Both the position numbers and the translations under genes were made by a program. A DNA stretch of 64,000 bases from Clostridium sp. AM22-11AC (GTDB taxonomy: Bacteria; Bacillota; Clostridia; Lachnospirales; Lachnospiraceae): NCBI RefSeq assembly GCF_003473545.1, contig NZ_QUCM01000005.1, positions 1-64,000 on the forward strand. Reading direction: 5' to 3'. How positions within the stretch are numbered: position 1 is the stretch's first letter; each line of letters starts with the position of its first letter. This document shows, piece after piece, positions 29,556 to 53,794 of the stretch. The notes beneath the pieces were generated by a model. The model saw nothing but the letters and a program-made list of their open reading frames with translations. It did no database searches and had not been told where the DNA came from.

Positions 29556-29612
29556 AACTCACAAACCCCGCGCTATCGCGCTCCACTGTCTGCTATCGCA
29601 GACGGTTTGCTC
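29556..29612 (-). repeat. Three-way-junction repeat, copy A
   Basis: On the minus strand it reads an outer stem CAAAC...GTTTG enclosing hairpin 1 GTCTGC-GATA-GCAGAC and hairpin 2 built on GCGC-GATA-GCGC. It lies in the leader of the metallophosphoesterase gene, in its sense orientation. Four relatives occur at 31984, 32044, 45345 and 53755. Confidence 0.8.
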
Positions 29613-29668
29613 CTTACATTATATCTTTTATAGTTATTATTTTCAAGAAAATAGTGAAAACGTGGGTC

Positions 29669-29697
29669 TTGACGGACGGAAACAGGCATGATACGAT
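29669..29697 (+). promoter_or_regulatory. nrdD promoter
   Basis: TTGACG (29669-29674), 17-bp spacer, TACGAT (29692-29697). The predicted start near 29704 is immediately upstream of the first NrdR box. Confidence 0.6.
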
Positions 29698-29709
29698 AAC
29701 ATACGCGAG

Positions 29710-29757
29710 AAAAGATATATAGTATATAAAAGATAAATGAAACACAATATATAGTAT
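29710..29757 (+). promoter_or_regulatory. Two NrdR boxes
   Basis: ACACAATATATAGTAT at 29742-29757 fits the NrdR consensus (ACAC-w-AtATaT-w-GtgT) at nearly every position. A second, weaker box with the same ATATATAGTATA core starts at 29710. The cores at 29715 and 29747 are 32 bp apart, three helical turns, as is typical of NrdR-controlled ribonucleotide reductase genes. Confidence 0.8.
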
Positions 29758-29790
29758 ACAAGCAAAAAAACAGACAGGAAAGGTGAAAGA

Positions 29791-31923
29791 ATGGACTGCA
29801 GTAAGATAAAGGTTGTAAAAAAAGACGGTACCAGGGAAGATTTTAATGTGCAGAAGGTGCTTTCTGCTATCAGCAAGTCAGCAGAGAGAGCCATGATCAC
29901 ATTTTCAAGGGCAGAGCGGAATTTTATCTGTGAATTTGTGGAAGAAAAGGCAGAGGAGATGGACCAGGAACTGATCCCCATCGCTCAGATGCACAACATT
30001 GTAGAAGGAGCGCTGGAAAAGGTCAATCCGCTGGTTGCAAAAAGTTACCGGGACTACCGCAATTATAAGCAGGATTTTGTGCGGATGCTGGATGATGTAT
30101 ACAAGAAAAGCCAGTCCATTATGTACATTGGAGATAAGGAAAACAGCAATACAGACAGTGCTCTGGTTTCCACCAAGCGCAGTCTGATCTTTAATGAGCT
30201 GAATAAATCCCTTTATCAGAAGTTTTTTATGACAGTAGAAGAACTGCAGGCGTGCAGGGAAGGTTATATCTACATTCACGATATGTCTGCCAGAAGAGAT
30301 ACTATGAACTGCTGTCTCTTTGATGTAAAATCTGTGCTTACCGGCGGTTTTGAAATGGGAAATCTGTGGTACAATGAGCCGAAAACACTGGATGTAGCCT
30401 TTGACGTGATCGGTGATATTGTTTTAAGTGCAGCCAGCCAGCAGTATGGCGGTTTTACAGTGCCAAGTGTGGAGAATATCCTGGCGCCTTATGCAGAAAA
30501 GTCTTATGCAAAATATCTTGAAAAGTACAGAAAATTGGGATTGCCGGAAGAAAAAGTAGAAGAAGTTGCCTGGGCAGATGTACAGAGAGATATGGAACAG
30601 GGATTTCAGGGATGGGAATACAAGTTTAACTCCGTTTCTTCCAGCCGCGGTGACTATCCGTTTATCACAATGACTGCAGGTACAGGAACCAGCCGCTTTG
30701 CAAAAATGGCGACCATGACCATGTTAAAAGTGCGAAAAGGCGGACAGGGAAAAGCAGGCCACAAAAAGCCGGTACTGTTCCCGAAAGTGGTATTTCTCTA
30801 TGATGAAAAGCTTCACGGACCAGGCGGTGAGTTAGAGGATGTATTTGAGGCAGGTATTGACTGCTCCAGCAAGACCATGTATCCGGACTGGCTTTCCCTT
30901 ACAGGAGAAGGCTATATTGCCAGCATGTACAAAAAATACGGAAAGATCATCTCTCCAATGGGCTGTCGTGCGTTCCTGTCACCGTGGTATGAAAGAGGGG
31001 GCATGCATCCGGCAGATGACAAAGACGAGCCCGTATTTGAAGGACGTTTTAATATCGGTGTAGTCAGCCTTCATCTTCCTATGATTCTGGCAAAGGCAAG
31101 ACAGGAAAACCGTGATTTTTATGAGGTTTTAGATTACTATCTGGAACTGATCAGAAGGATCCATATCCGTACCTATGCATACTTAGGTGAGATGAAAGCT
31201 TCTACCAATCCGCTGGCATACTGTGAAGGCGGATTTTACGGCGGCCATTTAGGTCTTCACGACAAAATAAAACCATTATTAAAAACTGCTACTGCTTCCT
31301 TTGGTATTACAGCGTTTAATGAGCTGCAGCAGCTGTATAATAAGAAGTCTTTAGTAGAAGACGGTCAGTTTGCACTGGAAGTATTGGAGCATATCAATAA
31401 AAAGATCGATGAGTTTAAAGAAGAAGACGGCAATCTCTATGCCATCTATGCAACACCGGCAGAGAACCTTTGCGGCCTGCAGGTAAAGCAGTTCCGTAAA
31501 AAATACGGCATTATTGAAAATGTATCTGACAGAGAGTATGTAAGCAACGGCTTCCACTGCCACGTAACCGAAGATATCACCCCGATTGAAAAACAGGATC
31601 TGGAATACCGTTTCTGGGAGTTAAGCAACGGCGGCAAGATCCAGTATGTAAAATACCCCATCAGCTACAATAAAGAAGCCATCCGCACCCTGGTGCGCAG
31701 AGCCATGAGAATGGGATTTTACGAAGGCGTAAACCTGTCACTGGCTTACTGTGATGACTGCGGCCACGAAGAACTGGAAATGGATGTCTGCCCGGCCTGC
31801 GGCAGCAAAAACCTGACGAAGATCGACAGAATGAACGGATATTTAAGTTATTCAAGGGTCAAAGGCGATACAAGACTAAACGAATCCAAAATGGCCGAGA
31901 TCGCAGAGAGAGTAAGCATGTGA
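29791..31923 (+). CDS. nrdD: Anaerobic ribonucleoside-triphosphate reductase
   Basis: 710 residues, class III RNR, which makes dNTPs from NTPs without oxygen. An N-terminal ATP cone is visible (VVKKDGTREDFNVQKVLSAI, about 5-95). The C-terminal zinc site has Cys654, Cys657, Cys667 and Cys670, and the glycyl radical residue is Gly683 in RMNGYLS. NrdG, its activase, is at 33170, separated by a convergent HTH gene and mscL. AGGAAAGG precedes the ATG. NrdR boxes upstream predict repression when dATP is plentiful. Confidence 0.96.
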   Translation: MDCSKIKVVKKDGTREDFNVQKVLSAISKSAERAMITFSRAERNFICEFVEEKAEEMDQELIPIAQMHNIVEGALEKVNPLVAKSYRDYRNYKQDFVRMLDDVYKKSQSIMYIGDKENSNTDSALVSTKRSLIFNELNKSLYQKFFMTVEELQACREGYIYIHDMSARRDTMNCCLFDVKSVLTGGFEMGNLWYNEPKTLDVAFDVIGDIVLSAASQQYGGFTVPSVENILAPYAEKSYAKYLEKYRKLGLPEEKVEEVAWADVQRDMEQGFQGWEYKFNSVSSSRGDYPFITMTAGTGTSRFAKMATMTMLKVRKGGQGKAGHKKPVLFPKVVFLYDEKLHGPGGELEDVFEAGIDCSSKTMYPDWLSLTGEGYIASMYKKYGKIISPMGCRAFLSPWYERGGMHPADDKDEPVFEGRFNIGVVSLHLPMILAKARQENRDFYEVLDYYLELIRRIHIRTYAYLGEMKASTNPLAYCEGGFYGGHLGLHDKIKPLLKTATASFGITAFNELQQLYNKKSLVEDGQFALEVLEHINKKIDEFKEEDGNLYAIYATPAENLCGLQVKQFRKKYGIIENVSDREYVSNGFHCHVTEDITPIEKQDLEYRFWELSNGGKIQYVKYPISYNKEAIRTLVRRAMRMGFYEGVNLSLAYCDDCGHEELEMDVCPACGSKNLTKIDRMNGYLSYSRVKGDTRLNESKMAEIAERVSM

Positions 31924-31926
31924 TGA

Positions 31927-31979
31927 ACGCAGAAGAAAAACAAGCGCCGCCGAAAAGGCGGCATTTGTTTTTCTTGCGT
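31927..31979 (+). terminator. nrdD terminator, related to the hairpin before murC
   Basis: A long hairpin: ACGCA..AGAAAAACAA and GCCGCC pair with GGCGGC and TTGTTTTTCTTGCGT. Its core (ACAAGCGCCGC...GCGGCATTTGT) recurs at 53707-53744, again directly before a repeat copy. Confidence 0.8.
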
Positions 31980-31983
31980 CATC

Positions 31984-32042
31984 AACGAGCAAACTGCCTG
32001 CGATAGCAGGCGGTGGAGCGCGGTAGCGCGTGTTTGCGAGTC
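31984..32042 (+). repeat. Three-way-junction repeat, copy B
   Basis: Outer stem GCAAAC (31989-31994) with GTTTGC (32032-32037), hairpin 1 GCCTGC-GATA-GCAGGC, hairpin 2 GCGCGGTAGCGCG. Hairpin 1 differs from copy A by a paired change (T-A to C-G), a compensatory substitution. It lies downstream of nrdD. Confidence 0.82.
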
Positions 32043-32043
32043 T

Positions 32044-32101
32044 AACGAACGATCCGTTTGCGATAGCAGACAGTAGAGCACGCTAGCGCGTGTTTGCGAG
32101 T
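32044..32101 (+). repeat. Three-way-junction repeat, copy C
   Basis: A tandem neighbour of copy B. Outer stem CGAAC with GTTTG (one G-U), hairpin 1 GTTTGC-GATA-GCAGAC (one G-U), hairpin 2 around CACGCTAGCGCGTG. It ends in the same TGTTTGCGAGT sequence as copy B. Confidence 0.8.
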
Positions 32102-32126
32102 GGACCGTACACGAACAAAAGTACAC

Positions 32127-32169
32127 AAGAAAAAGACAGCCCGACAAAATCATCGGCTGTCTTTTTCTT
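32127..32169. terminator. Bidirectional terminator overlapping the 3' end of an HTH gene
   Basis: AAGAAAAAGACAGCC(C)GA pairs with TCGGCTGTCTTTTTCTT. On the minus strand one arm encodes the last residues (KDSR) of the HTH protein, and its stop codon falls at the edge of the loop. T-runs occur on both strands. Confidence 0.75.
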
Positions 32170-32512
32170 TCTCTTTTTTATTCCTTTTCTTCCGATAAGA
32201 CCCGTCAGCCAATCCTTCCAGATAAGATTCTGCCCGGATCTTATTAGACGGACCAAGCTGGTTATAAAGGTCAAGTACATATTTCTGTTGCTTGTTTAAG
32301 ATCGTCTGGCTGCCGTCTGTACTGTAAAACTCTCCCATGGAGATACCGAATACCTGGCATATATGGCGGAGTGTAGGAATACTGGGCACAGTGGTGCGGC
32401 GGAAAAGATTTCCTATGCTGTTTGGGGAAATATCCATTTCCTTTGCAAGGCGGTAATGGCTCCAACCACGGTCATTACACAGCTCCTCTATGCGGTCCAG
32501 TTCAAAACTCAT
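32150..32512 (-). CDS. HTH (XRE/Cro-type) transcriptional regulator
   Basis: 120 residues. XRE helix-turn-helix at about 5-60 (WSHYRLAKEMDISPNSIGNLFRR; IPTLRHICQVFGISMGEFY), then a helical segment and a charged tail (KKRNKKEKEKDSR). The start at 32512 follows AGAAGGAG; the frame continues to a TTG at 32530, which is less likely. It is convergent with nrdD and divergent from mscL. Targets are unknown. The tail is encoded in an A-rich arm of the terminator at 32127-32169. Confidence 0.85.
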   Translation of the reverse strand: MSFELDRIEELCNDRGWSHYRLAKEMDISPNSIGNLFRRTTVPSIPTLRHICQVFGISMGEFYSTDGSQTILNKQQKYVLDLYNQLGPSNKIRAESYLEGLADGSYRKKRNKKEKEKDSR

Positions 32513-32713
32513 AGCTTCTCCTTCTGTCAAGTACGATTATATTAGTATTTTATCCCAGTAACACAAAAAACATTAGCTTGAAAAAGAGTGTATAAATTAT
32601 GCATTAAATAGTGCATACAGAGCACATACAGGAAAATCAAGTGGAAAAATCCCCTGGATTATGATAGACTGATACCAACAGCATTACTGTAAATGAAAAT
32701 GGAGGCGGGACAG

Positions 32714-33166
32714 ATGAAAAAGTTTTTGGAAGAATTCAAAGCGTTTGCATTAAAGGGCAACATGATCGATCTGGCCGTAGGTATGATCATTGGCAGTGCA
32801 TTTACATCAATCGTTAATTCCCTTGTAAATGATATTTTTATGCCGGTATTAAGTATTTTCACTGGAAAGATCGATTTTTCCAACATGTTTATTGCCTTAG
32901 ACGGCAACAAATATCCAACACTGGCAGCAGCCAATGAAGTGACAGCTACCATTAATTATGGTTCTTTTATCACCCAGGCGATCAATTTCTTGCTGATGGC
33001 TTTTGTTGTATTTATGGTCATCAAGGCGATCAATAAACTGGAAAAAATTGGAAAGGCTTCGGAAGCACCAAAAGCGCCTACAGAGAAAGAATGCCCATAT
33101 TGCAAGAGCATGATTCCTATTAAGGCAGTTCGGTGTCCACATTGTACCTCAGAACTGGAGAAGTAA
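32714..33166 (+). CDS. mscL: Large-conductance mechanosensitive channel with C-terminal zinc ribbon
   Basis: 150 residues. The two MscL membrane helices are clear (about 15-45, with [20 protein letters not shown], and 83-105), with the N-terminal FKAFALKGN amphipathic helix. The C terminus carries Cys127-x2-Cys130 and Cys141-x2-Cys144, a zinc-ribbon-like knuckle absent from E. coli MscL. The channel releases solutes on osmotic downshock. GGAGG 8 bases upstream fixes the start at 32714. It is 3 bp before nrdG, so the two are probably cotranscribed. Confidence 0.93.
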
Positions 33167-33169
33167 GAT

Positions 33170-33661
33170 ATGCGTTACCATAACATAACGAAAGACGATA
33201 TGCTCAATGGAGAAGGGCTGCGGACTGTGCTTTGGGTGGCAGGCTGCAGCCATCATTGTCCTCAGTGCCATAATCCTGTTACATGGGATATTAATGGCGG
33301 ACTGGTTTTTGATGAGCAGGCAAAAGAAGAATTATTTGAAGAACTGAAAAAAGACTATGTTTCCGGTGTGACTTTCAGCGGCGGCGATCCCTTTCATCTG
33401 GAAAACAGGGAAGAGATCGGGGCACTTGCAAAAGAGATCCGGGAAAAATTTCCAGATAAGACCATCTGGCTGTATACCGGTTATGAATGGGAAGAGATCT
33501 GCCATCTGTCATTTCTTTCCAATATAGATGTGATCGTAGACGGGAAATTTAAGATCGAAGAAAAAGACAATAATCTTCACTGGAAAGGCAGTGCCAACCA
33601 GCGTGTGATCGATGTAAAAGCATCCCTTCGCGCAGGAGAGGTCCGTCTTTACCAGGAGTAA
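33170..33661 (+). CDS. nrdG: Anaerobic ribonucleotide reductase activating protein
   Basis: 163 residues, a radical SAM activase that installs the glycyl radical on NrdD. The iron-sulfur motif is Cys26-x3-Cys30-x2-Cys33 (CSHHCPQC), preceded by GEGLRTVLWVAG and followed by TFSGGDP, the SAM-binding region. It is separated from nrdD by about 1.2 kb (HTH gene, mscL), unlike the common nrdDG arrangement. It is followed by dut. Confidence 0.96.
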   Translation: MRYHNITKDDMLNGEGLRTVLWVAGCSHHCPQCHNPVTWDINGGLVFDEQAKEELFEELKKDYVSGVTFSGGDPFHLENREEIGALAKEIREKFPDKTIWLYTGYEWEEICHLSFLSNIDVIVDGKFKIEEKDNNLHWKGSANQRVIDVKASLRAGEVRLYQE

Positions 33662-33706
33662 TGAAAAGAAGAAAAGCAGCATAGAAAGACAGGAGTAAAC
33701 ACACAC

Positions 33707-34228
33707 ATGGAAAGAATTGCAAAATTTCATAAAGTAAGTTATGAACAGTTTGAAGGTGACTGGAAAGATACCTTCGGTCCCATTGAAACAGAAGAGATCA
33801 AAAGAATTTATGAAGGGATCCGTCTGCCTGCAAGGGCAACTGCAGGATCCGCAGGTTATGATTTTTATACACCGGTAGCTGTGACCATCCGTCCGGGTGA
33901 GATCGTTAAGATCCCTACAGGCATCCGTGCAGAGATGAATGAGGGCTGGGTACTTGCTGTATTCCCAAGAAGCAGCCTTGGATTTAAGTACCGTCTGCAG
34001 TTAAATAATACAGTTGGCATCATTGACAGTGACTATTTCTTCTCTGATAATGAGGGTCATATTTTTATCAAACTGACCAATGATACAAAGGAAGACAAGA
34101 CCGTAGAACTGTCAGAAGGTGCAGGATTTGCCCAGGGAATTTTCTTCCCATTTGGAATTACAGAAGATGATGACTGCAGCGAACAGAGAAACGGCGGTTT
34201 TGGCAGTACAGACAGTAAAAGAGGTTAG
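33707..34228 (+). CDS. dut: dUTP diphosphatase (trimeric type)
   Basis: 173 residues with the five dUTPase motifs in order: AGYDFYT (49-55), PRSSLGFK (87-94), NTVGIIDSDY (101-110), GAGFAQGIF (138-146) and the C-terminal arm RNGGFGSTDS (161-170). It hydrolyses dUTP to dUMP, the substrate of ThyA, and keeps uracil out of DNA. An insertion after motif 3 (FFSDNEGH) and an N-terminal extension of about 35 residues distinguish it from the short E. coli form. It groups with nrdG in a nucleotide-supply stretch. Confidence 0.9.
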   Translation: MERIAKFHKVSYEQFEGDWKDTFGPIETEEIKRIYEGIRLPARATAGSAGYDFYTPVAVTIRPGEIVKIPTGIRAEMNEGWVLAVFPRSSLGFKYRLQLNNTVGIIDSDYFFSDNEGHIFIKLTNDTKEDKTVELSEGAGFAQGIFFPFGITEDDDCSEQRNGGFGSTDSKRG

Positions 34229-34232
34229 TAAT

Positions 34233-35234
34233 ATGGGAAACAGACCTGTAAACAGAAGCAGGAGAAGCGCAGGGAGAGGAAGATATTCCAGTGGAAGGAG
34301 CAGATCCAGTACCCTTAGAAGGCGCAGAAGGAACAGGCGCCTGAAAAATGTTCTTATTGGACTTTGCTGTATCCTTTTAGTGGTCCTTCTGGTATTTGGC
34401 GTTGGAAAACTGGTGGAAAGATTTGCCGGTCCCGGAAAGACACAGCTGAGAAAAGAGGGAATTGAAAAATTAAATTCCGGTGACTTAGAAGGCGCTGTGG
34501 CTGATTTTGACCAGGCTCTTGAAAAGGCAGGAAACAAGTCAAATAAAGCCTCTGCATTTAATGCAGATGTGTTGTGGTACCGGGCAGAAGCGGAAATGTT
34601 TCTGGCAGACTATGAGGCAGCTTCCCACACCTATGACCTGGTAGCAGAGCAGGGCGGAGATAAGATCTCCAGCCTGTATATGAAGGCGGTCTGCGCAGGA
34701 AAGTTAGAGGACAAGGATCAGGCAGTTTCTTATTACAGAGAAGCACTGGGAATGGAAAAAGAAGGCGTCCGTTCACCGGGATATGAAGAGGCACTGATTG
34801 CTGCAGGTTCTGCCTGCGTAAAGGCACAGGACTCTGAAACAGCAAAAAGTCTTTATGAAGAGGCATTAAACAGTGGAAAAACGGGAGAAAAACTGGAAAG
34901 CAGGATTTATAATCAGCTGGGTCTATGCCAGATGGCTGAAGAGGATTATGAAACAGCTGCTGATACGTTTGACAAGGGATATAATGCCCTGATCACCGGA
35001 TATAAAGCAGGAACCGGGGCAGAACTGGATCAGGCAGCTGCTGCGATCCCGAAAGAAGATACCCAGGGACTTACACTTTTAAAAGAACTGGCTTATAACA
35101 AGGCAGTCTGCCTGGAATACAGACAGCAGTACCGTCAGGCACAGGCAGAATTTGAGACTTATATCAAGGTATTTGGGGATGATGAAGACGCCCGGCATGA
35201 GATCGACTTTTTAAAGACCAGACAGGAGGAATAA
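34233..35234 (+). CDS. Membrane-anchored TPR protein
   Basis: 333 residues. The N terminus is strongly basic (RSRRSAGRGRYSSGRSR, then RRRRRNRRLK), followed by one membrane helix (about 38-60, VLIGLCCILLVVLLVFGVGKL) and a long tetratricopeptide-repeat region. TPR units such as EKLNSGDLEGAVADFDQALEKAG and GLCQMAEEDYETAADTFDKGY are visible. It probably scaffolds proteins at the membrane; the partners are unknown. The start is 4 bp after dut. The frame is open back to 34119 inside dut, but that region is not TPR-like. Confidence 0.8.
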   Translation: MGNRPVNRSRRSAGRGRYSSGRSRSSTLRRRRRNRRLKNVLIGLCCILLVVLLVFGVGKLVERFAGPGKTQLRKEGIEKLNSGDLEGAVADFDQALEKAGNKSNKASAFNADVLWYRAEAEMFLADYEAASHTYDLVAEQGGDKISSLYMKAVCAGKLEDKDQAVSYYREALGMEKEGVRSPGYEEALIAAGSACVKAQDSETAKSLYEEALNSGKTGEKLESRIYNQLGLCQMAEEDYETAADTFDKGYNALITGYKAGTGAELDQAAAAIPKEDTQGLTLLKELAYNKAVCLEYRQQYRQAQAEFETYIKVFGDDEDARHEIDFLKTRQEE

Positions 35235-35241
35235 TACACCG

Positions 35242-36510
35242 GTGATTGATTTAAAGGAACTGGAAGAACGGGTAATACTGGCAGCAGTAAGTACCAGTGA
35301 AACAGATATGGCAGAACGCTCTTTAGATGAGTTAAAAGAACTGGCAGATACAGCCGGGGCAAAGACTGTAGGCCGTGTGATCCAGAACCGGGAAAGCGTT
35401 CATCCGGGAACCTATCTGGGAAAAGGAAAACTGCAGGAACTGCGGGAGATGCTTTACGAAACAGGGGCTACAGGCGTGATCTGTGACGATGAACTTTCCC
35501 CTGCACAGCTCAAAAATCTGGAAGATATACTGGATACAAAGGTGATGGACCGTACCATGGTCATCCTGGATATCTTTGCAGCCAGAGCCAATACAAGGGA
35601 AGGCAAGATCCAGGTAGAACTGGCCCAGTTAAAATACCGTGCCATCCGTCTGGTGGGAATGCGTTCCTCTCTTTCCAGACTGGGAGGCGGTATCGGTACA
35701 AGAGGACCTGGTGAGAAAAAACTGGAAACAGACCGCCGTCTTATTCACCAGCGCATTGGTCAGTTAAAGAAAGAGCTGGAAGATGTAAAACGCCACCGGG
35801 AAGTGACCAGACAGCAACGTGGAAAAGACCATGCGTTGACAGCTGCGATCGTAGGCTATACCAATGCAGGAAAGTCCACGTTGTTAAATCGTCTTACTGG
35901 AGCGGGGATCCTGGCAGAGGATAAACTTTTTGCTACGCTGGACCCAACGACCCGCAGTTTTACACTGGGAGACGGACAGCAGATCCTTCTTACAGATACC
36001 GTTGGTTTTATCAACAAACTGCCCCACCATCTGGTAGAAGCATTTAAAAGTACCCTGGAAGAGGCACGCTACAGTGATATCGTCCTTCATGTAGTGGACT
36101 GTTCCAATCCCCAGATGGATATGCATATGCATGTTGTAAAAGAAACTTTGCGGGAACTGGGGATCACAGATAAGACCATCGTTACTGTGTTTAATAAAAC
36201 AGACCGTTTAGAAGAAAGCGGCCTGCCGATTCCAAGGGATTTCTCCGCAGATTACCAGGTGCGTATTTCTGCTAAAAACGGGGATGGTTTAAAAGAATTA
36301 GAGGAGATACTGGGTAATATCATCCGCAGCAGGAGAGTTTATCTGGAAAAGACCTATTCTTATTCCCAGGCAGGAAAGCTGCAGACCATCCGCAAATATG
36401 GACAGCTGCTTTCAGAAGAATATACAGAAGAGGGGATCAAAGTAACGGCCTATGTGCCGGCAGAACTGTTTGCAGGACTGTATGGGGATGGACCGGAAGA
36501 AAAGGAATGA
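35242..36510 (+). CDS. hflX: GTPase HflX
   Basis: 422 residues. The N-terminal HflX domain (HPGTYLGKGKLQEL; RLGGGIGTRGPGEKKLETDRR) is followed by a GTPase domain with G1 GYTNAGKST (205-213), G3 DTVGF and G4 NKTD. HflX binds ribosomes and rescues stalled or hibernating 70S. The start is GTG at 35242, with AGGAGG located in the 3' end of the preceding gene, suggesting coupling. Confidence 0.95.
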   Translation: MIDLKELEERVILAAVSTSETDMAERSLDELKELADTAGAKTVGRVIQNRESVHPGTYLGKGKLQELREMLYETGATGVICDDELSPAQLKNLEDILDTKVMDRTMVILDIFAARANTREGKIQVELAQLKYRAIRLVGMRSSLSRLGGGIGTRGPGEKKLETDRRLIHQRIGQLKKELEDVKRHREVTRQQRGKDHALTAAIVGYTNAGKSTLLNRLTGAGILAEDKLFATLDPTTRSFTLGDGQQILLTDTVGFINKLPHHLVEAFKSTLEEARYSDIVLHVVDCSNPQMDMHMHVVKETLRELGITDKTIVTVFNKTDRLEESGLPIPRDFSADYQVRISAKNGDGLKELEEILGNIIRSRRVYLEKTYSYSQAGKLQTIRKYGQLLSEEYTEEGIKVTAYVPAELFAGLYGDGPEEKE

Positions 36511-36514
36511 TGAG

Positions 36515-36560: not shown

Positions 36561-36592
36561 GCAGATTTTGGATAGGTTTGTGCCGGTTTTTC

Positions 36593-40548: not shown

Positions 40549-40551
40549 AAG

Positions 40552-44472: not shown

Positions 44473-45303
44473 TCAGATCGCTACAGGAACTTTATGATCA
44501 AACGGATGATACTGGTAATTTTCCAGCTTGAAGCTGTCTGTTGTAAACTGGTAGAAATCTTTTACCTCCGGATCGACCCATAAAGTTGGTCCCGGCAAAG
44601 GCTCTTTTTTCAGAAGTTCTTCTACCATAGGAATGTGGCGGTCATAAATATGGGCGTCTGCGATCACATGGACCAGTTCTCCTACTTTTAAGCCGCTTGC
44701 CTGAGCGAACATGTGCATCAGGACTGCGTACTGGCATACATTCCAGCTGTTTGCAGTAAGCATATCCTGGGAACGCTGGTTTAAGATACCGTTTAAGGTA
44801 TCGCCGGATACATTAAAGGTCATGCTGTAGGCACATGGATACAGGTGCATTTCGCTTAAATCATGGTGATTGTAGATATTGGACATAATGCGGCGGCTTA
44901 AAGGATTGTGCTTTAAATCATAAAGGATACGGTCTACCTGGTCGAAATCCCCTTCTTTATAATGATGCTTCACGCCCAGCTGGTATCCGTAGGCTTTTCC
45001 GATACTGCCGGTCTCATCAGCCCAGGAGTCCCAGATATGGCTCTTTAAGTCATGTACATTGTTGGACTTTTTCTGCCAGATCCACAGCAGCTCATCCACT
45101 GCGGATTTAAAATAAGTGCGGCGCAGTGTGATCACCGGAAACTCTTTTCTTAAGTCGTATCGGTTTACAATGCCGAATTTTTTAATGGTGTGAGCCGGAG
45201 TGCCGTCTTCCCATACAGGGCGCACTTCATGGTCAGTATCCCAGACTCCGTTTGTAAGAATGTCTTTGCAATTTTGTATAAAAAGCTGATCTGCGTAACT
45301 CAT
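44473..45303 (-). CDS. thyA: Thymidylate synthase
   Basis: 276 residues. It methylates dUMP to dTMP using methylene-tetrahydrofolate. The catalytic Cys157 is in LYPCAYS, where most ThyA have PCH, so the residue after the nucleophile is Ala and not His. RRIMSNIYN holds the phosphate arginine, and LNQRSQDM and HIYDRH are conserved. The start at 45303 is chosen because MSYADQ follows AAGGAG; the frame is open to 45354. It is divergent from folA, which regenerates its cofactor. Repeat copy D lies upstream in sense orientation. Confidence 0.94.
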   Translation of the reverse strand: MSYADQLFIQNCKDILTNGVWDTDHEVRPVWEDGTPAHTIKKFGIVNRYDLRKEFPVITLRRTYFKSAVDELLWIWQKKSNNVHDLKSHIWDSWADETGSIGKAYGYQLGVKHHYKEGDFDQVDRILYDLKHNPLSRRIMSNIYNHHDLSEMHLYPCAYSMTFNVSGDTLNGILNQRSQDMLTANSWNVCQYAVLMHMFAQASGLKVGELVHVIADAHIYDRHIPMVEELLKKEPLPGPTLWVDPEVKDFYQFTTDSFKLENYQYHPFDHKVPVAI

Positions 45304-45344
45304 GTGGTTTTGTGTCTCCTTTTGCGATGGCATAGAATATAGAC

Positions 45345-45397
45345 TTATGGACACGCGCGGGCGCGCTCTGTTGTCTGCTTACGCAGACGGTCCATTA
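45345..45397 (-). repeat. Three-way-junction repeat, copy D
   Basis: Outer stem ATGGAC (45347-45352) with GTCCAT (45390-45395), replacing the CAAAC/GTTTG stem of copies A and B by compensatory changes. On the minus strand hairpin 1 is GTCTGC-GTAA-GCAGAC (a GNRA-type loop) and hairpin 2 pairs CGCG with CGCG. It lies in the thyA leader, in its sense orientation. Confidence 0.8.
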
Positions 45398-45545
45398 CCT
45401 AGTATAGCAAATCTCAGACATGCAGTACAGCAAAACTGTAACAAATTTCAGCAAAAGGTATCTAAAAGGTATTGGTATCTTCCAATTTTAAAAACTACGT
45501 GTTATAATTCTTCTGGTAGTTAAAATATAAACAAGGGGTTTGGAC

Positions 45546-46583: not shown

Positions 46584-47495
46584 ATGAAAAGTGACGGCAG
46601 CGTGTTTACACTGGAAAACGAAGAACTTCTGATCATGGTTGAGCGTCATGGTTCTCAGCTTTCCAGGATCTATGATAAAAAAGCAGACAGGGAGATCCTG
46701 TGGAGCGCAGACCCGGCAGTATGGAACCGTCATTCACCTATCCTTTTTCCATTTATTGCCAAATCTGTAAATGGAAAATACCGCTATGAGGGAAAGGAAT
46801 ACAATATTTCTTCTCATGGATTTGCAAGAGATATGGACTTTGAGCCGGTCCTTTGCGATATGGATGAGTGTACATACGTATTAAAAGACACGCCGGAGAC
46901 AATGGAAAAATATCCGTTCCATTTTGAACTGGAGATCACACACCGTTTAAAAGGACGTACCATTGAAACGTCCTGGAAAGTGACCAACTTAAATGGAAAA
47001 GAAATGCTGTTTATGATCGGTGGTCATCCGGCATTTCAGGTTCCGGAAGGAAAGAACATTTACGATTATACCCTTGTATTTAACAAAGAAGGGGTAAAAG
47101 CAGGGGAACATCAGGACAGTCTTCATTATCAGGCTCCTAATGCAGAGGGATATGAGGACCGTTCTCTTCAGGGTGATCTGAAACTTACAGATGGAAAAGT
47201 TCCTGTAACACCAGGATTTTTCGATACAGCACTGACTTATATGTTCGATCATGAGCAGATCAGCAGTGTAGGACTTTTGACAGATGGAAAGCCATATGTT
47301 ACAGTATTATGCGACGGATTTCCTTTTGTAGGAGTCTGGACCATAGAAAAGACACACCCCTTTGTATGTCTTGAACCATGGTATGGAGTATGTGACTCAA
47401 AGAATTTTACCGGAGAGTTAAAAGAAAGACAGGGCATCCAGAGCTTAAAAGCATGGGAGACCTGGGAAAAAGGTTACAGCATCAGGATAGAGTGA
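46584..47495 (+). CDS. Aldose 1-epimerase family protein (LacX-like)
   Basis: 303 residues, a galactose-mutarotase beta-sandwich. HSPILFPFIAKSVNGKYRYEGKEYNI, SSHGFARDMDF (with the conserved His) and GGHPAFQVP are LacX/aldose-epimerase features, and CLEPWYG holds the C-terminal acid. It interconverts sugar anomers; the specific sugar is unknown. A strong GGGGGGA precedes the ATG. It follows the DHFR pair by 31 bp, which may be chance. Confidence 0.85.
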   Translation: MKSDGSVFTLENEELLIMVERHGSQLSRIYDKKADREILWSADPAVWNRHSPILFPFIAKSVNGKYRYEGKEYNISSHGFARDMDFEPVLCDMDECTYVLKDTPETMEKYPFHFELEITHRLKGRTIETSWKVTNLNGKEMLFMIGGHPAFQVPEGKNIYDYTLVFNKEGVKAGEHQDSLHYQAPNAEGYEDRSLQGDLKLTDGKVPVTPGFFDTALTYMFDHEQISSVGLLTDGKPYVTVLCDGFPFVGVWTIEKTHPFVCLEPWYGVCDSKNFTGELKERQGIQSLKAWETWEKGYSIRIE

Positions 47496-47559
47496 TCTGC
47501 CTGGTCTATAATAGAAAAAATAATGTCCACTGGACATAAAACATTTTAGGAGGGAAAAC

Positions 47560-48450
47560 ATGTACAAGATTGTAAATGCAGAATGTCTGGCAGACAAGAT
47601 CTATCTGATGGATGTGGAAGCACCCCGTGTAGCAAGAGCCTGTCAGCCAGGAGAATTCGTTATCGTTAAGATGGATGAAGTAGGAGAGAGAATTCCCCTT
47701 ACTATCTGCGATTTCGACCGTGAGAAGGGTCTGGTAACCATCGTATTCCAGATCGTAGGTGCTTCTACCATGCGTATGGCAGAACTGAAAGCCGGAGATT
47801 ATTTCCAGGATTTCGTAGGTCCTTTAGGACAGCCATCTGAGTTTGTAAAAGAAGACTTAGAAGAAGTTAAGAAGAGAAAATACCTGTTCGTAGCAGGTGG
47901 TGTTGGTTCTGCTCCTGTTTACCCGCAGGTTAAGTGGATGCATGAACATGGCATTGATGTAGATGTAATTGAAGGTTCCAAGACCAAGAGTCTTTTAATT
48001 CTGGAAGATAAGTTAAAAGCAGTTGCAGGAAATCTGTACGTAACTACAGATGATGGTTCTTACGAGCGTAAGGGCATGGTAACTGAGGTTATCAAAGACC
48101 TGGTTGAAAATCAGGGTAAAAAGTACGATGTATGTGTTGCCATCGGACCAATGATCATGATGAAATTCGTATGTAAGCTGACCAAGGAACTGGGAATTCC
48201 AACTATCGTCAGCCTGAACCCGATCATGGTAGATGGAACTGGTATGTGTGGAGCATGCCGTGTTTCTGTAGGCGGTGAAGTGAAGTTCGCATGTGTAGAC
48301 GGACCTGAGTTTGACGGACATCTGGTAGATTTCGACCAGGCTATGAAACGTCAGCAGATGTATAAGACAGAAGAAGGCCGTGCGATCCTGAAATTCCAGG
48401 AAGGCAAGACACATCACGGCGGATGCGGAAACTGCGGAGGTGAAGAATAA
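47560..48450 (+). CDS. nfnA: NfnA-type ferredoxin-NADP reductase subunit alpha
   Basis: 296 residues. An FAD domain (GERIPLTICDFDREKGLVTIVFQ), an NAD domain (FVAGGVGSAPVYPQ) and a C-terminal iron-sulfur region (GTGMCGACRVSVGGEVKFACVDGPEFDGH). With NfnB it forms the electron-bifurcating NADH-dependent ferredoxin:NADP oxidoreductase of anaerobes, in the cytoplasm. The C terminus is Cys-rich (HHGGCGNCGG), somewhat longer than needed. It overlaps nfnB by one base. Confidence 0.9.
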   Translation: MYKIVNAECLADKIYLMDVEAPRVARACQPGEFVIVKMDEVGERIPLTICDFDREKGLVTIVFQIVGASTMRMAELKAGDYFQDFVGPLGQPSEFVKEDLEEVKKRKYLFVAGGVGSAPVYPQVKWMHEHGIDVDVIEGSKTKSLLILEDKLKAVAGNLYVTTDDGSYERKGMVTEVIKDLVENQGKKYDVCVAIGPMIMMKFVCKLTKELGIPTIVSLNPIMVDGTGMCGACRVSVGGEVKFACVDGPEFDGHLVDFDQAMKRQQMYKTEEGRAILKFQEGKTHHGGCGNCGGEE

Positions 48451-49838
48451 TGGACGTATTAAAGAGAGTACCTGTAAGAGAACAGGATCCAAAGGTAAGA
48501 GCTACTAATTTTGAGGAAGTATGTCTTGGATATAACCAGGAAGAAGCACAGGAAGAAGCAACCCGCTGCTTAAACTGCAAGAACGCACAGTGCGTTAAGG
48601 GCTGCCCTGTATCTATCAACATTCCAAAATTCATTTCAGAAGTAAAAGAAGGCAAGTTCAAAGACGCAGCAGCAACTATCGCTGAGTCCAGTGCACTGCC
48701 AGCAGTCTGCGGACGTGTTTGTCCACAGGAGAGCCAGTGTGAAGGAAAATGTATCCGCGGCTTTAAGGGCGATCCTATTTCCATCGGTAAACTGGAGCGT
48801 TTCGTAGCAGACTGGTCCAGAGAGAACGGCGTTGTACCGGCTAAGCCAGAGACCACCAATGGTATCAAGGTAGCTGTGATCGGTTCCGGTCCTTCCGGTC
48901 TGACCTGTGCAGGAGATCTTGCAAAACTGGGCTACGAAGTAACCATTTTCGAGGCACTTCATGAGCCAGGCGGCGTTCTTACTTATGGTATTCCTGAGTT
49001 CCGTCTTCCAAAGACCAGAGTTGTACGTCCGGAAGTAGAGAACGTTAAGAAATTAGGCGTTAAGATCGAAACAGACGTTATCATCGGCAAGTCCGTTACC
49101 ATTGACGAACTGATGGAAGAGGAAGGCTTCAAGGCTGTATTTATCGGTTCCGGTGCCGGACTTCCTAAGTTCATGGGTATCCCTGGTGAGAACGCAAACG
49201 GCGTATTATCCGCAAATGAGTACCTGACCAGAAGCAACCTGATGAAGGCATTCCGCGATGACTATGACACCCCGATCTACTTAGGCAAGAAAGTTGCCAT
49301 CGTAGGCGGCGGAAACGTAGCAATGGATGCTGCAAGAACCGCTCTTCGTCTGGGCGCAGAAGTACATGTTGTATACAGAAGAAGTGAAGCAGAGCTTCCA
49401 GCCCGTGCTGAGGAAGTTCATCATGCAAAAGAAGAAGGCGTTATCTTCGACCTTCTGACCAACCCTGTAGAAATCTTAACTGATGAAAATGACTGGGTAA
49501 CCGGCATGGTAGTACGTAAGATGGAACTGGGCGAGCCAGATGCTTCCGGACGCCGCAGACCAGTAGAGGTAGAAGGTTCTGATTACACCATCGACGTAGA
49601 TACCGTTATCATGTCCCTTGGTACTTCTCCAAACCCACTGATCTCCTCTACCACAGAAGGACTGGAGACCAACAAGTGGAAATGCATCATCGCTGATGAA
49701 ACCAACGGCAAGACCACCAAGGAAGGCGTATACGCAGGCGGCGACGCTGTAACAGGCGCAGCAACCGTTATCCTTGCAATGGAAGCTGGTAAAGCAGGCG
49801 CCAGAGGTATTGATGAGTACTTGAAAGGCAATAAGTAA
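48450..49838 (+). CDS. nfnB: NfnB-type NADPH-dependent oxidoreductase subunit beta (GltD-like)
   Basis: 462 residues. The N terminus holds the two [4Fe-4S] ligand groups (CLNCKNAQCVKGCPV; CGRVCPQESQCEGKC), followed by FAD (VAVIGSGPSGLTCAGDL) and NADPH (KVAIVGGGNVAMDAARTALRLGAEV) binding domains. It is often annotated as glutamate synthase small subunit, but its partner nfnA directly upstream indicates the NfnAB transhydrogenase. A terminator follows. Confidence 0.9.
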   Translation: MDVLKRVPVREQDPKVRATNFEEVCLGYNQEEAQEEATRCLNCKNAQCVKGCPVSINIPKFISEVKEGKFKDAAATIAESSALPAVCGRVCPQESQCEGKCIRGFKGDPISIGKLERFVADWSRENGVVPAKPETTNGIKVAVIGSGPSGLTCAGDLAKLGYEVTIFEALHEPGGVLTYGIPEFRLPKTRVVRPEVENVKKLGVKIETDVIIGKSVTIDELMEEEGFKAVFIGSGAGLPKFMGIPGENANGVLSANEYLTRSNLMKAFRDDYDTPIYLGKKVAIVGGGNVAMDAARTALRLGAEVHVVYRRSEAELPARAEEVHHAKEEGVIFDLLTNPVEILTDENDWVTGMVVRKMELGEPDASGRRRPVEVEGSDYTIDVDTVIMSLGTSPNPLISSTTEGLETNKWKCIIADETNGKTTKEGVYAGGDAVTGAATVILAMEAGKAGARGIDEYLKGNK

Positions 49839-49869
49839 TATTTTCTAAATCCTATTTGAATTAAAAACA

Positions 49870-49920
49870 GATATCCCTTTGCAGTTGATCGTTAAGAGGC
49901 TGCAGAGGGGTATTTTTTTA
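49870..49920 (+). terminator. Terminator after nfnAB
   Basis: ATATCCCTTTGCAG pairs with CTGCAGAGGGGTAT, followed by a T-run. Confidence 0.85.
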
Positions 49921-50036
49921 TTTTTAATTTATAAAATTTAACAGGATTTTTATATTTTCAACAAGTAAAGATTGTGCTAATATAAATACATAAAAAGCGG
50001 CTCTTAATACGGGGGCGTACATAGGAGGTAATGTGT

Positions 50037-51494
50037 ATGGGAACTAACATTATTGTAACGGCTATTGTGGTCGTGTATCTTCTGTTTATGTTATGGATCG
50101 GCTGGTATTCTTCCACCAAGATCACAAGCAACACAGACTTTATGGTAGCAGGAAGACGATTAGGTCCCCTTTTAATGGCAGGAACACTGGCTGCAACGGA
50201 GATCGGCGGTGGCAGTTCCCTGGGTGTTGTACAGAATGGTATGTCCGGCTTTGGACTGAGTGCTTCCTGGTATATTACCACCATGGGTATTGCCTTTGTA
50301 ATCTTAAGTTTTATTGCACCGAAATTCCGTGCGGCTACTGTTAAGACCGTTCCGGAATATTTCCGCAGACGTTATGGCAAGGAATGTGGTCTGATCACAG
50401 CGATCATCATGCTGCTTCCTTTGGTAGGACTGACAGCAGGACAGTTTATTGCCTCAGCGGTTATCCTTTCCACCATGTTAAATATTGATTACCAGGTGGC
50501 AGTTGTGATCGTGGCAGTGGTAGTTACTGCTTATTCCATTATGGGCGGCTTGTGGAGTGTTACACTGACTGACTTTGTGCAGGTATTCCTGATCGTCATC
50601 GGTATGATCATTGCAATTCCTTTCGCATTAAATTACGCAGGTGGCTGGAGCAGCGTAACTGCAAACATTGAGCCGGGAACATTGAGCATGTTTAAGGGCT
50701 ATGATGTATTTGGCATTATTTCCCTGGTTGTTATGTATACAGCAACCTTCTCTGTTGGACAGGAAGCAGTATCCCGTTTCTATGCTGCAAAAGATGAGAA
50801 AGCAGCAAAGGGCGGCGCATGGCTGGCAGCTCTTGTAAACTTTATTTACGCATTTGTTCCTACTATTTTAGGTATCATTACACTGGCACTGATCAACATG
50901 GGCAAGTTCAGCGCAGATAAATTTGCTTCTGTAGGCGCCCGTTACGCCCTTCCGGTACTGGCTATGAACACCATGCCGGCACTGATCTGCGGTCTGCTGT
51001 TTGCAGGCATCATTTCCGCAACCATGTCCAGTTCCGACTCTGACCTGTTAGGTGCCGGATCTATTTTCGCAAATGATATTTACAAAGCAGTATTAAAACC
51101 GGATGCTTCCAGCCAGTCTGTTATGAACGTAACAAAGATCGTTATGTGTCTGGTAGGCGTTGCATCTATGTTTATTGCACTGTTTAATACCCAGAGCATT
51201 GTTTCTATCCTGATGTTCTGCTTTACCTTACGTGCAGCCGGTTCCTTCTTCCCATATGTTATGGGACATTACTGGAAGAAAGCTTCCAAGGCAGGAACCA
51301 TTGCATCCCTGCTTGCAGGAACAATCGTTGTTGTTTATCTGGAGCATATTTCCGGAGGCGTGCTCTTTGGCATTAAGTTCAGCCAGCCGATCATTCCTGG
51401 CCTGGTAGCAGCTTTCATCGGATTTATCGTATTTTCTAAGATCATGCCTCCTGAGCATGAGACAACGGAATTAGCACCGGAAGAGGATGACTAA
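50037..51494 (+). CDS. Sodium:solute symporter family transporter
   Basis: 485 residues, about 13 hydrophobic helices. DFMVAGRRLGPLLMAGTLAATEIGGGSSLG, YSIMGGLWSVTLTDFVQ and FAGIISATMSSSDSDLL are SSS-family signatures (the last includes the Na+-site serines). The substrate is not evident. The start at 50037 is preferred to the ATG at 50031 because AGGAGG lies 8 bases from the former and only 2 from the latter. Single-gene unit. Confidence 0.9.
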   Translation: MGTNIIVTAIVVVYLLFMLWIGWYSSTKITSNTDFMVAGRRLGPLLMAGTLAATEIGGGSSLGVVQNGMSGFGLSASWYITTMGIAFVILSFIAPKFRAATVKTVPEYFRRRYGKECGLITAIIMLLPLVGLTAGQFIASAVILSTMLNIDYQVAVVIVAVVVTAYSIMGGLWSVTLTDFVQVFLIVIGMIIAIPFALNYAGGWSSVTANIEPGTLSMFKGYDVFGIISLVVMYTATFSVGQEAVSRFYAAKDEKAAKGGAWLAALVNFIYAFVPTILGIITLALINMGKFSADKFASVGARYALPVLAMNTMPALICGLLFAGIISATMSSSDSDLLGAGSIFANDIYKAVLKPDASSQSVMNVTKIVMCLVGVASMFIALFNTQSIVSILMFCFTLRAAGSFFPYVMGHYWKKASKAGTIASLLAGTIVVVYLEHISGGVLFGIKFSQPIIPGLVAAFIGFIVFSKIMPPEHETTELAPEEDD

Positions 51495-51502
51495 GGTATA
51501 AA

Positions 51503-51540
51503 AATATCCCCCGTCTGTGATCTGCAGGCGGGGGAAAATA
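51503..51540 (-). terminator. Terminator for the minus-strand P1 peptidase
   Basis: TCCCCCG (51507-51513) pairs with CGGGGGA (51529-51535). On the minus strand it is followed by a short T-rich tract (ATATTTTTATA). Confidence 0.6.
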
Positions 51541-51555
51541 TATGAGATTTGTTTG

Positions 51556-51576
51556 AAACCGCCACTGGCGGTTTTT
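51556..51576 (+). terminator. Terminator for the symporter gene
   Basis: AAACCGCC-ACT-GGCGGTTT compact hairpin followed by T-rich sequence. Confidence 0.75.
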
Positions 51577-51590
51577 GTGTTTTAGAAGGG

Positions 51591-52544
51591 TTATTTCGCA
51601 GCTTTTACAGCGATCTGGATCGCTTCTGCCATTACTTCAGCAGCCAGAGTTCCAGTCATATTTACATCTGCAGTCACTCTTGGGCCGCAGGAAGCAGCGT
51701 AGATAGAGTCGCCGTCTGCCATGGTTCCTACCGGGTTGATACAGCGTGAATAGGCGCTGCGGGTCATGGAAGCGATCTTATTTAATTCAGCCTTGGAGAA
51801 ATCACCATTTGTGATAATAGCACCAATGGTAGTATTGGAATTTTTAGCACGGAACAGATCGGTCTGCTGGCTCAGTTTGTAAAGTGCTTCTCTGGAGTCT
51901 GCAAAGCCGTCCATACCAGGAAGTTTTGGTCCTGCGATCTTTTCGCCGGTAGATGGATCATAAATATCACCCAGGGCATTTAAAACAACGACAGCGGCAA
52001 CTTTCAGGCTTCCTGCGCTGACAGCATAAATTCCAAGACCTGTTTTTGTGGCATATTCCCGTCCACAGATCTTTCCAACACTGGCGCCTGTTCCTGCGCC
52101 GGTGATACCGCTTTCCGGATGGTTCTTTTCCGCATCTTCACATGCCGCATATCCCATGGCAGCATCCGGCCGCACATCTGCCCGGCCGATCCCCAGGTCA
52201 TAAATACAGGACTGGCATACTAAGGGTACTTTTGCAAAGCCGGTATCATAGCCAATTCCATGTTCCTCCAGATAACGCATAACACCGTCACTGGCAGCCA
52301 GTCCAAAAGCAGAGCCGCCGGATAATACAATGGCATTAATGGGATTATCAGCAGTAACAGGAGAAGTAAGAGGTGTTTCCCTGGAAGCCGGACCACCGCC
52401 GCTGATATCGCAGCCGGCCTTGGCTCCCTCATCAAAACGAAGCACAGTGACACCAGTCATGGCATTTAAGTCCTGGGCATTTCCTATGCGGAGCCCTTCA
52501 ATTTCGGTAATAGAAATCTCTTTCAAAGGCGGAAATAATTTCAT
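51591..52544 (-). CDS. P1 family peptidase (DmpA/NylC-like)
   Basis: 317 residues, an N-terminal-nucleophile hydrolase that cleaves itself. The processing site is most likely Asn237-Thr238 in NSNTTIGAI, which would make Thr238 the nucleophile. SGGSAFGLAASDGV, VRPDAAMGY and GAGTGASVGKI are family motifs. Members hydrolyse beta- or D-amino-acid amides and nylon oligomers. The start at 52544 follows AAGGAGA. It is cotranscribed with the ECF S component 85 bp upstream on the same strand, suggesting the two act on related small amides. Confidence 0.88.
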   Translation of the reverse strand: MKLFPPLKEISITEIEGLRIGNAQDLNAMTGVTVLRFDEGAKAGCDISGGGPASRETPLTSPVTADNPINAIVLSGGSAFGLAASDGVMRYLEEHGIGYDTGFAKVPLVCQSCIYDLGIGRADVRPDAAMGYAACEDAEKNHPESGITGAGTGASVGKICGREYATKTGLGIYAVSAGSLKVAAVVVLNALGDIYDPSTGEKIAGPKLPGMDGFADSREALYKLSQQTDLFRAKNSNTTIGAIITNGDFSKAELNKIASMTRSAYSRCINPVGTMADGDSIYAASCGPRVTADVNMTGTLAAEVMAEAIQIAVKAAK

Positions 52545-52628
52545 AATAAACAAATCTCCTTATACATCTTTATAATATTTTTCCCGGACAAAACTGCCCG
52601 GGAAATCGTATTTTCATGTTAAATTAAG

Positions 52629-53261
52629 TTATTTCTTTAAAGCAGCTGTCAGTGCTCTGGAAACAGCACTTCCAAGAATGGTGCATACAACAGCTTCAAT
52701 AGCACCCTGAATACCTACAAACAGGACAACAAAGAACAGTGGATTGGAAGTTCCAAGCCCGGAAGCAATGTTCTGGATGTATTCTGTATGGAAGAAGAAC
52801 AGTACCAGGGAACTCATAAACAGCAGGGTGTTTAACAGCGGGCAGGAAAGGCTTGCAATAACGAAAGCTCCGTTTTTGGAAACTTTCTTAAGAGCAGCGA
52901 AGATCAGGCCGCACAGCCATCCCTCCAGGATACGGGGAACTAATAAAGTAAATAAAAGACCAAATGGGTTGATCTGTAATAAAGCTGCGCTGAAAGCAGA
53001 ACCACCGGTAAGAGCCATAATGGCACTGGTCAGACCAAAAGCGCCGCCGCAGATGGCGCCGGCTGTTGGACCAAGGATAATGGCGCCTACAGCAACAGGC
53101 ACAGTTAAAAAGGTAATGGTAAGTCCCGGGGTACGCAGATAACCAAGAGGTGAAAATGCCATGACAAAGATAATGGCAACCATAAGAGCTAACTTCACCA
53201 TAAAAGTGGTCCGTGAACGGGACATCTCAGAAGTTACGGGATTTGCAGTTGTTGTTTTCAT
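52629..53261 (-). CDS. ECF transporter substrate-binding S component
   Basis: 210 residues with about six hydrophobic segments. TVPVAVGAIILGPTAGAICGGAFGLTSAI is the conserved S-component region following the N-terminal helix. S components capture a vitamin or related molecule for import with the shared EcfAAT module, which is not in the window. The vitamin is not identifiable by eye; pantothenate-type S components look most similar, but this is weak. The N-terminal 22 residues are polar. AGGAGA precedes the ATG. Confidence 0.82.
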   Translation of the reverse strand: MKTTTANPVTSEMSRSRTTFMVKLALMVAIIFVMAFSPLGYLRTPGLTITFLTVPVAVGAIILGPTAGAICGGAFGLTSAIMALTGGSAFSAALLQINPFGLLFTLLVPRILEGWLCGLIFAALKKVSKNGAFVIASLSCPLLNTLLFMSSLVLFFFHTEYIQNIASGLGTSNPLFFVVLFVGIQGAIEAVVCTILGSAVSRALTAALKK

Positions 53262-53704
53262 TGTGTTCTCCTTTTTCGCTGATAAAACGGCACTGGTTCT
53301 ATCTGCATATCTGCAGTTTCACAGCTCCCCCTGTTTTTCAGCCTTTATTTAGTTTGTTTTGGGGATACAATGAACGGAAACTTAAGAGTAAAAAGCTCAG
53401 TTCCAGACCATAAGATCATAGAAAATCAAGTAGAATAAAGTTGTATACATGATACAGGTAAAAAGCATCTGGTTACAGCCATAAAAGGTCTGCACGGGCA
53501 AATTCCTGCAAAGTATATAATTTATAAAAAGGTCTGATCATGATACATTTTCCTAAGAATAACGTTCAAATTTAATATAGCATAAATCTGGAAAACAGCA
53601 AGTTTTTATGCAGGTACAAAGGAAAAAAGCATAAAGCTGGCAGTACATTTGACAGAAAATCCAGTAGCATTTCAGGGTAAATGTGGTTATAATGTAATGG
53701 GTGC
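53262..53704. other. Long intergenic region between ECF S gene and murC
   Basis: About 440 AT-rich bases without a credible gene. On the plus strand TATAAT (53688-53693) is a -10 candidate for murC with a weak -35; TTGACA at 53649-53654 is 33 bp away, too far to pair with it. On the minus strand the 5' leader of the ECF S gene holds a CTGCA-GATA-TGCAG hairpin near 53300. TPP, FMN, preQ1, folate and cobalamin riboswitch cores were looked for and not found. Confidence 0.5.
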
Positions 53705-53706
53705 CG

Positions 53707-53744
53707 AAAAAAACAAGCGCCGCGAAAGCGGCATTTGTTTTTTT
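53707..53744 (+). terminator. Terminator-like hairpin in the murC leader
   Basis: AAAAAACAA..GCCGC-GAAA-GCGGC..TTGTTTTTT. It has the core of the nrdD terminator at 31927-31979 and, like it, sits just before a repeat copy. It lies between the -10 candidate at 53688 and murC, so it could attenuate murC. Confidence 0.7.
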
Positions 53745-53754
53745 CAAGCCCATT

Positions 53755-53794
53755 AACGAACAACCCGTCTGCGAAGCAGACAGTAGAGCGCGTA
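53755..53794 (+). repeat. Three-way-junction repeat, copy E (truncated)
   Basis: CGAAC then hairpin 1 GTCTGC-GAA-GCAGAC, then CAGTAGAGCGCG, where similarity stops before the second arm of hairpin 2. It ends 13 bases before the murC start codon, next to the ribosome site. Confidence 0.75.

Follow-up and report, generated by a model that had tools for sequence, protein, structure and literature searches.

We report that five short, related elements (copies A to E) within a 64,000-nucleotide (nt) stretch of the Clostridium sp. AM22-11AC genome (contig NZ_QUCM01000005.1, positions 1 to 64,000; hereafter ‘the window’) belong to a family of structured repeats. At a probability of about 60%, we read this family as a non-autonomous, modular mobile repeat of Lachnospiraceae, which inserts at transcript boundaries, where transcription turns it into a structured leader. 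The repeat occurs many times, often at the transcript start of unrelated genes, and therefore probably moved there. An earlier note on the same DNA, made from the sequence alone, had proposed either a mobile unit or a structured leader RNA; the two are compatible, as the element looks mobile and sits as a leader.

The family is built from two modules, a 61-nt three-way junction and an optional 5′ hairpin, P1, which are found singly, together and in tandem. The junction core comprises an outer stem with a tandem G-A mismatch plus two short hairpins, and P1—with the motif AAGCGR...RCATT—often lies immediately before it. Copies A and D consist of the junction alone, B and E of P1 plus junction, and the P1 form, as in these latter two, mostly ends in GAGT. 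The plan of an outer stem and two hairpins given in the earlier note is correct for the junction, but had missed the additional 5′ hairpin before B and E. Its claim that all five copies share the full plan applies to A to D (the outer stem of C being partly broken) and not to E. In the latter, the 5′ strand of the outer stem is followed by hairpin 1, the linker and just the first (5′) arm of hairpin 2, after which comes the murC start region; because it runs into the murC start before hairpin 2 closes, copy E cannot form the junction. A sister architecture is represented in the genomes G042, G080, G134 and G016, where most copies shown are ~165 bp units closed by GTAACAGTTCAGCC and GGCTGAACTGTTAC, their long hairpin often bearing a GCTTGC or GCTCGC loop. 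Tandem spacings of all types (n = 44) fell at 62–98 nt (19, roughly a junction alone), at 110–137 nt (17, roughly a junction plus a further hairpin) or outside these ranges (8).

Copies for the fold and context analyses were collected with R1, a covariance model from 19 copies (A to D included) whose seeds had been gathered with a pattern fixed in both hairpins. Applied to 178 sources, chosen from the matches listed, R1 gave 229 hits; removal of one duplicate left 228, representing 216 distinct cores. Copy types were labeled by simple patterns, and a few labels are wrong (e.g., L044, L045 and L076, placed in the P1 form). In an alignment of 108 distinct rows fitted to the tested structure (A3), both-sided changes occurred at 18 of 18 pairs and 97.9% of cells paired, compared to at most 45.2% in slid versions; none of 500 shuffles reached the observed values. 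The compensatory stem changes expected of a structured nucleic acid family are hence present, and the paired changes that the earlier note had cited for its fold extend to every pair of the model. A fresh fold prediction on a MAFFT alignment of 35 P1-form copies returned the same plan, with 35 pairs, 27 of them showing double changes. By eye, the two main forms share the tandem G-A mismatch below the outer stem (ACGAGC/GCGAGT and ATGAGG/CCGAAT). Halfway along P1, all 35 copies keep a G-U pair, and the adjoining position is C-A in 33 of 35 (columns 25–43 and 26–42 of alignment A6, which includes 35 of 53 box-bearing P1-form copies, a limit of four per genome having left 39 and removal by hand having taken four more); such a C-A pair could be pH-sensitive. 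Cells in the 216 cores comprised 3667 Watson-Crick, 69 G-U, 19 A-C and 61 other combinations. The excess of G-U over A-C points to the sense strand as the folded one, a direction that the model, rewarding G-U, itself favors.

Hairpin 1 varies in the genome G208, where one loop reads TTT as compared to GAA or GCA in its siblings (L164 versus L158 and L160), and where L161, L162 and L163 carry a nested inverted duplication inside the hairpin. These variants may stem from inversion or template switching at the palindrome.

Scanning the window with the GCAGACNNNNGAGCGCG pattern at up to three mismatches returned 14 matches (shuffle mean 6.85, largest 12), and those with zero or one mismatch were exactly the five elements, all at the positions that the earlier note had given. 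A whole-window R1 search recovered, in falling order of score, B, A, D and E, the last not being among the model's seeds; copy C needed to be searched alone because its match overlaps that of B by 2 nt (scores in Table 1). R2, a model from 35 P1-form copies of other genomes, scored highest at the B region, followed by E (49.3 bits), A (42.8 bits) and D (38.1 bits).

Outside the window, the motif pattern identified 22 stretches in a species collection, of which 16—from Lachnospiraceae, Eubacterium or Blautia—showed the full fold by eye. The remaining six, from other taxa, were rejected as copies outside Lachnospiraceae: by eye they lack the rest of the element, and in their genomes R1 gave a single weak match, of 24.7 bits, which fell in one of the two from uncultured Akkermansia. 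The motif pattern was absent from viral contigs. Within the 13 genomes behind the 16 motif loci, R1 found 149 matches at E-values (E) up to 0.01, ranging from 1 to 24 each; one of the 13 is Lachnospiraceae bacterium LC2019, whose copies mostly have the GAAT ending of the sister type. At E up to 1e-4, 36 of 299 genomes sampled from the family had R1 matches, two of which genomes were known from before. In this latter search, 18 candidates were scored per genome; given the limits set at the first screening, copy numbers are lower bounds. No copy was detected by R1 in 17 genomes of the genus of G131, the genome with the closest MurC (84%) among the 299. The family is lineage-specific to Lachnospiraceae.

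Inspecting the genomic context revealed the P1 form to be placed in gene leaders. Genes were called by a simple open-frame rule, such that some called stop codons are not from real genes, and 161 of 184 sites had a called gene on both sides, the other 23 being dropped. Of the 81 P1-form sites in this count (79 when labeled by first copy), 43 were codirectional in sense and 4 antisense, 29 divergent and 5 convergent (p = 3e-9 and 4e-5), which amounts to a sense downstream gene at 72 sites. The corresponding counts (codirectional sense, antisense, divergent, convergent) were 4, 11, 10 and 3 for closed sister units, 9, 5, 5 and 6 for units that have a GCTTGC-type loop and lack the inverted repeat, and 11, 5, 8 and 3 for the remaining copies. 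The leader bias therefore belongs to the P1 form, to which the orientation bias postulated in the earlier note is confined. That note would have put family and fold down to chance if no further copies, no paired substitutions or no such bias came to light. Genome searches found copies in many genomes, and together with the compensatory changes and the sense bias of the P1 form they leave none of these outcomes standing; chance as the origin of the family is ruled out by covariation and the further copies.

The P1 form also keeps a register to its surroundings. Of 114 P1-form hits, 51 carry an exact TATAAT at 46–78 nt ahead of the junction, as opposed to a mean of 2.4 and at most 7 in shuffles; TGnTATAAT was recorded in 34. 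Selection for a box where one is expected (TATAAT, TATACT, TAAAAT or TACAAT) retained 57 of 116 P1-form hits, and in these P1 is predicted to start pairing 0–4 nt past the box. Where a P1-form site has a gene upstream in sense but lacks TATAAT (22 sites), a called stop codon lies 42–75 nt before the junction in 14, that is, about one P1 length away. Over codirectional sense sites of all types, the coding start lies at a median of 61 nt downstream. Pfam scanning assigned 84 families to 65 of 70 downstream proteins, with no family in more than three of them; a functional regulon was discarded, as no enrichment among downstream gene families was seen.

Several comparisons suggest that copies have moved. 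For 58.6% of 220 hits, the most similar copy at another locus came from the same genome, compared to a mean of 6% (maximum 9%) over 20 label shuffles. Flanking proteins formed 36 similar pairs. In four of these, a single protein had been counted from two sites at one locus; among the rest, the strongest pairs joined close species. In the two nearest genomes found (G320 and G131), the −10 box of the metallophosphoesterase leader is retained and the element is absent: the leader reads GATATAAT and then TTACTGAGCA in G320, GATATAAT, the 61-nt element and TTACTGAGCA in the window, and TTATAATTTACG in G131. Going by these flanks, the G320 leader is a probable empty site for copy A. No target-site duplication was seen at it, and other leaders are too diverged. 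Sites also differ between G001 and G010; at one, G001 has P1 plus a truncated junction and G010 has P1 plus two junctions, and at another (L121) two copies in G001, each with a −10-like box beside it by eye, correspond to none in G010, with leaders that hardly align. Empty sites were also sought within the genera of G012 and G208, where the best congener proteins are only ~64% identical or the gene is absent, and the nrdD 3′ region was not found in the relatives' stretches examined.

We picture the process as follows. Units would insert in a fixed register, immediately 3′ of either a −10 box or the stop codon of an upstream gene. Transcribed in sense from the neighboring −10 box, the element would then form the folded front of unrelated messenger RNAs (mRNAs) or a stretch between their cistrons, provided that the RNA is produced and folds accordingly in the cell. 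In the least certain step, the folded end might protect the mRNA from 5′-end-dependent decay, as a structured end right at the transcript start would suggest, or alter early elongation; the idea of 5′-end protection derives from general knowledge of RNA decay in Gram-positive bacteria. As a tentative and rather doubtful refinement, the element could insert where the open promoter complex exposes single-stranded DNA, with the folded strand immediately 3′ of the −10 box and in sense. If so, each insertion into a promoter bubble would constitute the first nucleotides of an mRNA, and the family would be a mobile structured leader aimed at the promoter bubble.

Other observations weigh against such a mobile leader. 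At the metallophosphoesterase gene, eight of the ten relatives' leaders examined (of 15 loci) differ and lack this junction of −10 box and flank, and at thyA, where G320 and G131 keep TGCTATACT, eight of ten examined do not. Automatic alignment fails to superpose the −10 boxes, and therefore the thyA case rests on a shared motif and the metallophosphoesterase case on short flanks. Neither a transposase nor any other mover was identified. The sister architecture is devoid of sense bias. The −35 boxes are weak, with four or more matches in 18 of 51 hits as opposed to 5 of 51 at control spacing. TATAAT is present in three of nine P1-form sites that have no sense downstream gene; since TATAAT shows no significant link to context (p = 0.29), the element may carry the −10 box along. 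Predicted P1 pairing starts so close to the box that part of P1 may stay untranscribed, and the G-U pairs counted above are few for an RNA.

Four alternatives deserve consideration. A cis-regulatory leader class—an attenuator or riboswitch-like RNA descending vertically and serving one signal and one regulon—would explain the leader placement and conserved unpaired bases of the P1 form, as well as the retention of the same site in close pairs such as G001/G010 and G003/G011. We consider it unlikely, as downstream genes are unrelated and show no consistent function, more distant genomes of the set share few sites, and copies most resemble those of their own genome. Moreover, the terminator-like P1 precedes the junction, which is the wrong order for an aptamer controlling a terminator. 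A multicopy small RNA (sRNA) with its own promoter, acting in trans, could likewise account for the −10 box in fixed register to P1 (51 of 114 hits) and for the sub-threshold similarity of the sister forms to RF01699 described below. Yet the short distance to the coding start (median 61 nt) and the called stop codons preceding 14 of 22 P1-form sites fit this idea poorly and render it quite improbable.

Equally little credence can be given to P1 being mainly an intrinsic terminator, with the junction as an accessory and the whole spreading as terminator cassettes, even though P1 of copy E scans as a stem with a T-rich stretch on both strands and P1 starts at the upstream stop codon in many copies, that at nrdD in the window included. 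A sense downstream gene at 72 of 81 P1-form sites and TATAAT at the P1 start in 51 of 114 hits would be out of place for a terminator, the invariant G-U (35 of 35) beside the C-A position weakens the stem, and A and D have no P1. Finally, short imperfect palindromes outside genes that are most alike within a genome recall repetitive extragenic palindromic (REP) sequences moved by a RAYT/Y1 transposase. However, Y1_Tnp matches occurred in 11 of 25 element-bearing genomes and in none of the other 14, among them G001, G005, G006, G010, G189, G208 and G298 (all genomes being drafts), and no element hit fell within 29 Y1 loci. This distribution leaves RAYT/Y1 unsupported as the mover and makes the explanation very improbable.

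A mobile structured leader thus remains our preferred reading. Small folded repeats of bacteria are often regarded as passive clutter of spare intergenic DNA. The present family keeps a fixed register with −10 boxes and also lies at stop codons, and therefore the same folded 5′ end would have been given repeatedly to unrelated genes. If mobility holds true, nature would have provided a set of one leader on many promoters, and with it a direct test of how a mobile repeat finds promoters and of the effects of a structured 5′ end in gut Lachnospiraceae.

Table 1 The repeat copies of the window and the features around them.
Feature	Position	Strand	Basis
Metallophosphoesterase gene downstream of A	28612–29520	−	PF00149
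Copy A, 61-nt three-way junction immediately 3′ of the −10 box, metallophosphoesterase leader	29557–29617	−	R1 75.2 bits; empty-site comparison
Promoter-like site of copy A: TTGAAA, 17 nt, TATAAT (box 29623–29618)	29618–29646	−	11 of 12 consensus positions
nrdD, its end meeting the start of copy B P1	29791–31923	+	PF13597
P1 hairpin of copy B, immediately 3′ of the nrdD stop codon	31924–31982	+	Fold reading, R2
Copy B, three-way junction	31983–32044	+	R1 75.6 bits; with P1, 111.8 bits by R2
Copy C, junction only, in tandem with B, outer stem partly broken	32043–32104	+	R1 64.4 bits
thyA	44473–45303	−	PF00303; start codon read from sequence
Copy D, three-way junction immediately 3′ of the −10-like box, thyA leader	45341–45400	−	R1 61.8 bits
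−10-like box TATACT (TGC before it) upstream of copy D	45401–45406	−	Same TGCTATACT precedes thyA in G320 and G131
−10 box TATAAT upstream of copy E, without −35 match	53688–53693	+	Sequence reading
P1 hairpin of copy E, predicted pairing from 1 nt after the −10 box	53695–53753	+	Fold prediction, R2
Copy E, truncated junction with complete hairpin 1 but partial hairpin 2 and outer stem	53754–53803	+	R1 28.1 bits
murC	53808–55193	+	PF01225, PF08245, PF02875

A promoter consensus scan reported no promoter-like site at the −10-like box of copy D or at the −10 box of copy E. With respect to neighboring genes, element copies adjoin thyA or folA (dihydrofolate reductase) in four genomes, namely in the window (45341–45400), G001, G010 and G189 (L040, L113 and L165), G001 and G010 being close relatives. 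In G003 (L003), a junction sequence lies after a transfer RNA gene and before greA, and the same sequence with matching context is found in G011 (L016).

By the features tested, the element is not a member of Clostridiales-1, REP/RAYT or the typical miniature inverted-repeat transposable elements (MITEs). REP/RAYT palindromes are short hairpin repeats outside genes. The present element differs from them in forming a three-way junction instead of one hairpin and in having no link to a Y1 transposase, be it in the genome or beside the repeat.

Among the literature matches listed, no paper dealt with the window form, and some name Clostridiales-1. The latter is rated a probable RNA that is not cis-regulatory in the passage devoted to it by Weinberg 2010 (PMC2864571), and is clostridial, like our family. 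The sister architecture resembles it further in its GCTTGC- or GCTCGC-loop hairpin, UGAG/CGAA stem and outer closing stem. An Rfam scan of the window gave no match at gathering scores and, at E up to 5, six weak matches only, none at any element and none to RF01699 (Clostridiales-1; gathering cut-off 48 bits). RF01699 matched 6 of 11 closed sister loci tested (seven matches, 32.6–36.6 bits) and loci with the GCTTGC hairpin but without GTAACAGTTCAGCC/GGCTGAACTGTTAC (33.1–42.1 bits), so that sister forms stay below the cut-off throughout (32.6–42.1 bits). Nine P1-form loci tested gave no match, and the P1-form copy L017 matched at 24.6 bits (E 0.32). A full Clostridiales-1 RNA (93.5 bits) lies on contig L018, at L018:597-766, ~240 nt after a junction copy. 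By eye, the RF01699 5′ hairpin with its GCUUGC loop is absent before copies A to E and present in sister forms. The published Clostridiales-1 structure has separate hairpins where our forms have a junction, and the P1 form has another 5′ hairpin. The statement in the earlier note that no named family matches hence holds for the window copies, whereas the sister architecture is a distant, sub-threshold relative of RF01699.

As regards MITEs (e.g., the Correia elements, in the account of PMC3049150), the sister architecture is similar in having terminal inverted repeats, GTAACAGTTCAGCC/GGCTGAACTGTTAC, around a folding core (seen in G042, G080, G134 and G016). No such repeats were seen by eye in the P1 form or in the window copies, and the one probable empty site showed no target duplication. 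BOX elements of Streptococcus pneumoniae, compared here by description, are significantly over-represented between convergent genes in the part of PMC3049150 that describes them, whereas the P1 form sits in gene leaders in register to the −10 box. Like our family, they are short, modular, structured repeats outside genes with one module in variable number, and are thought, in the same account (PMC3049150), to be non-autonomous and mobile.

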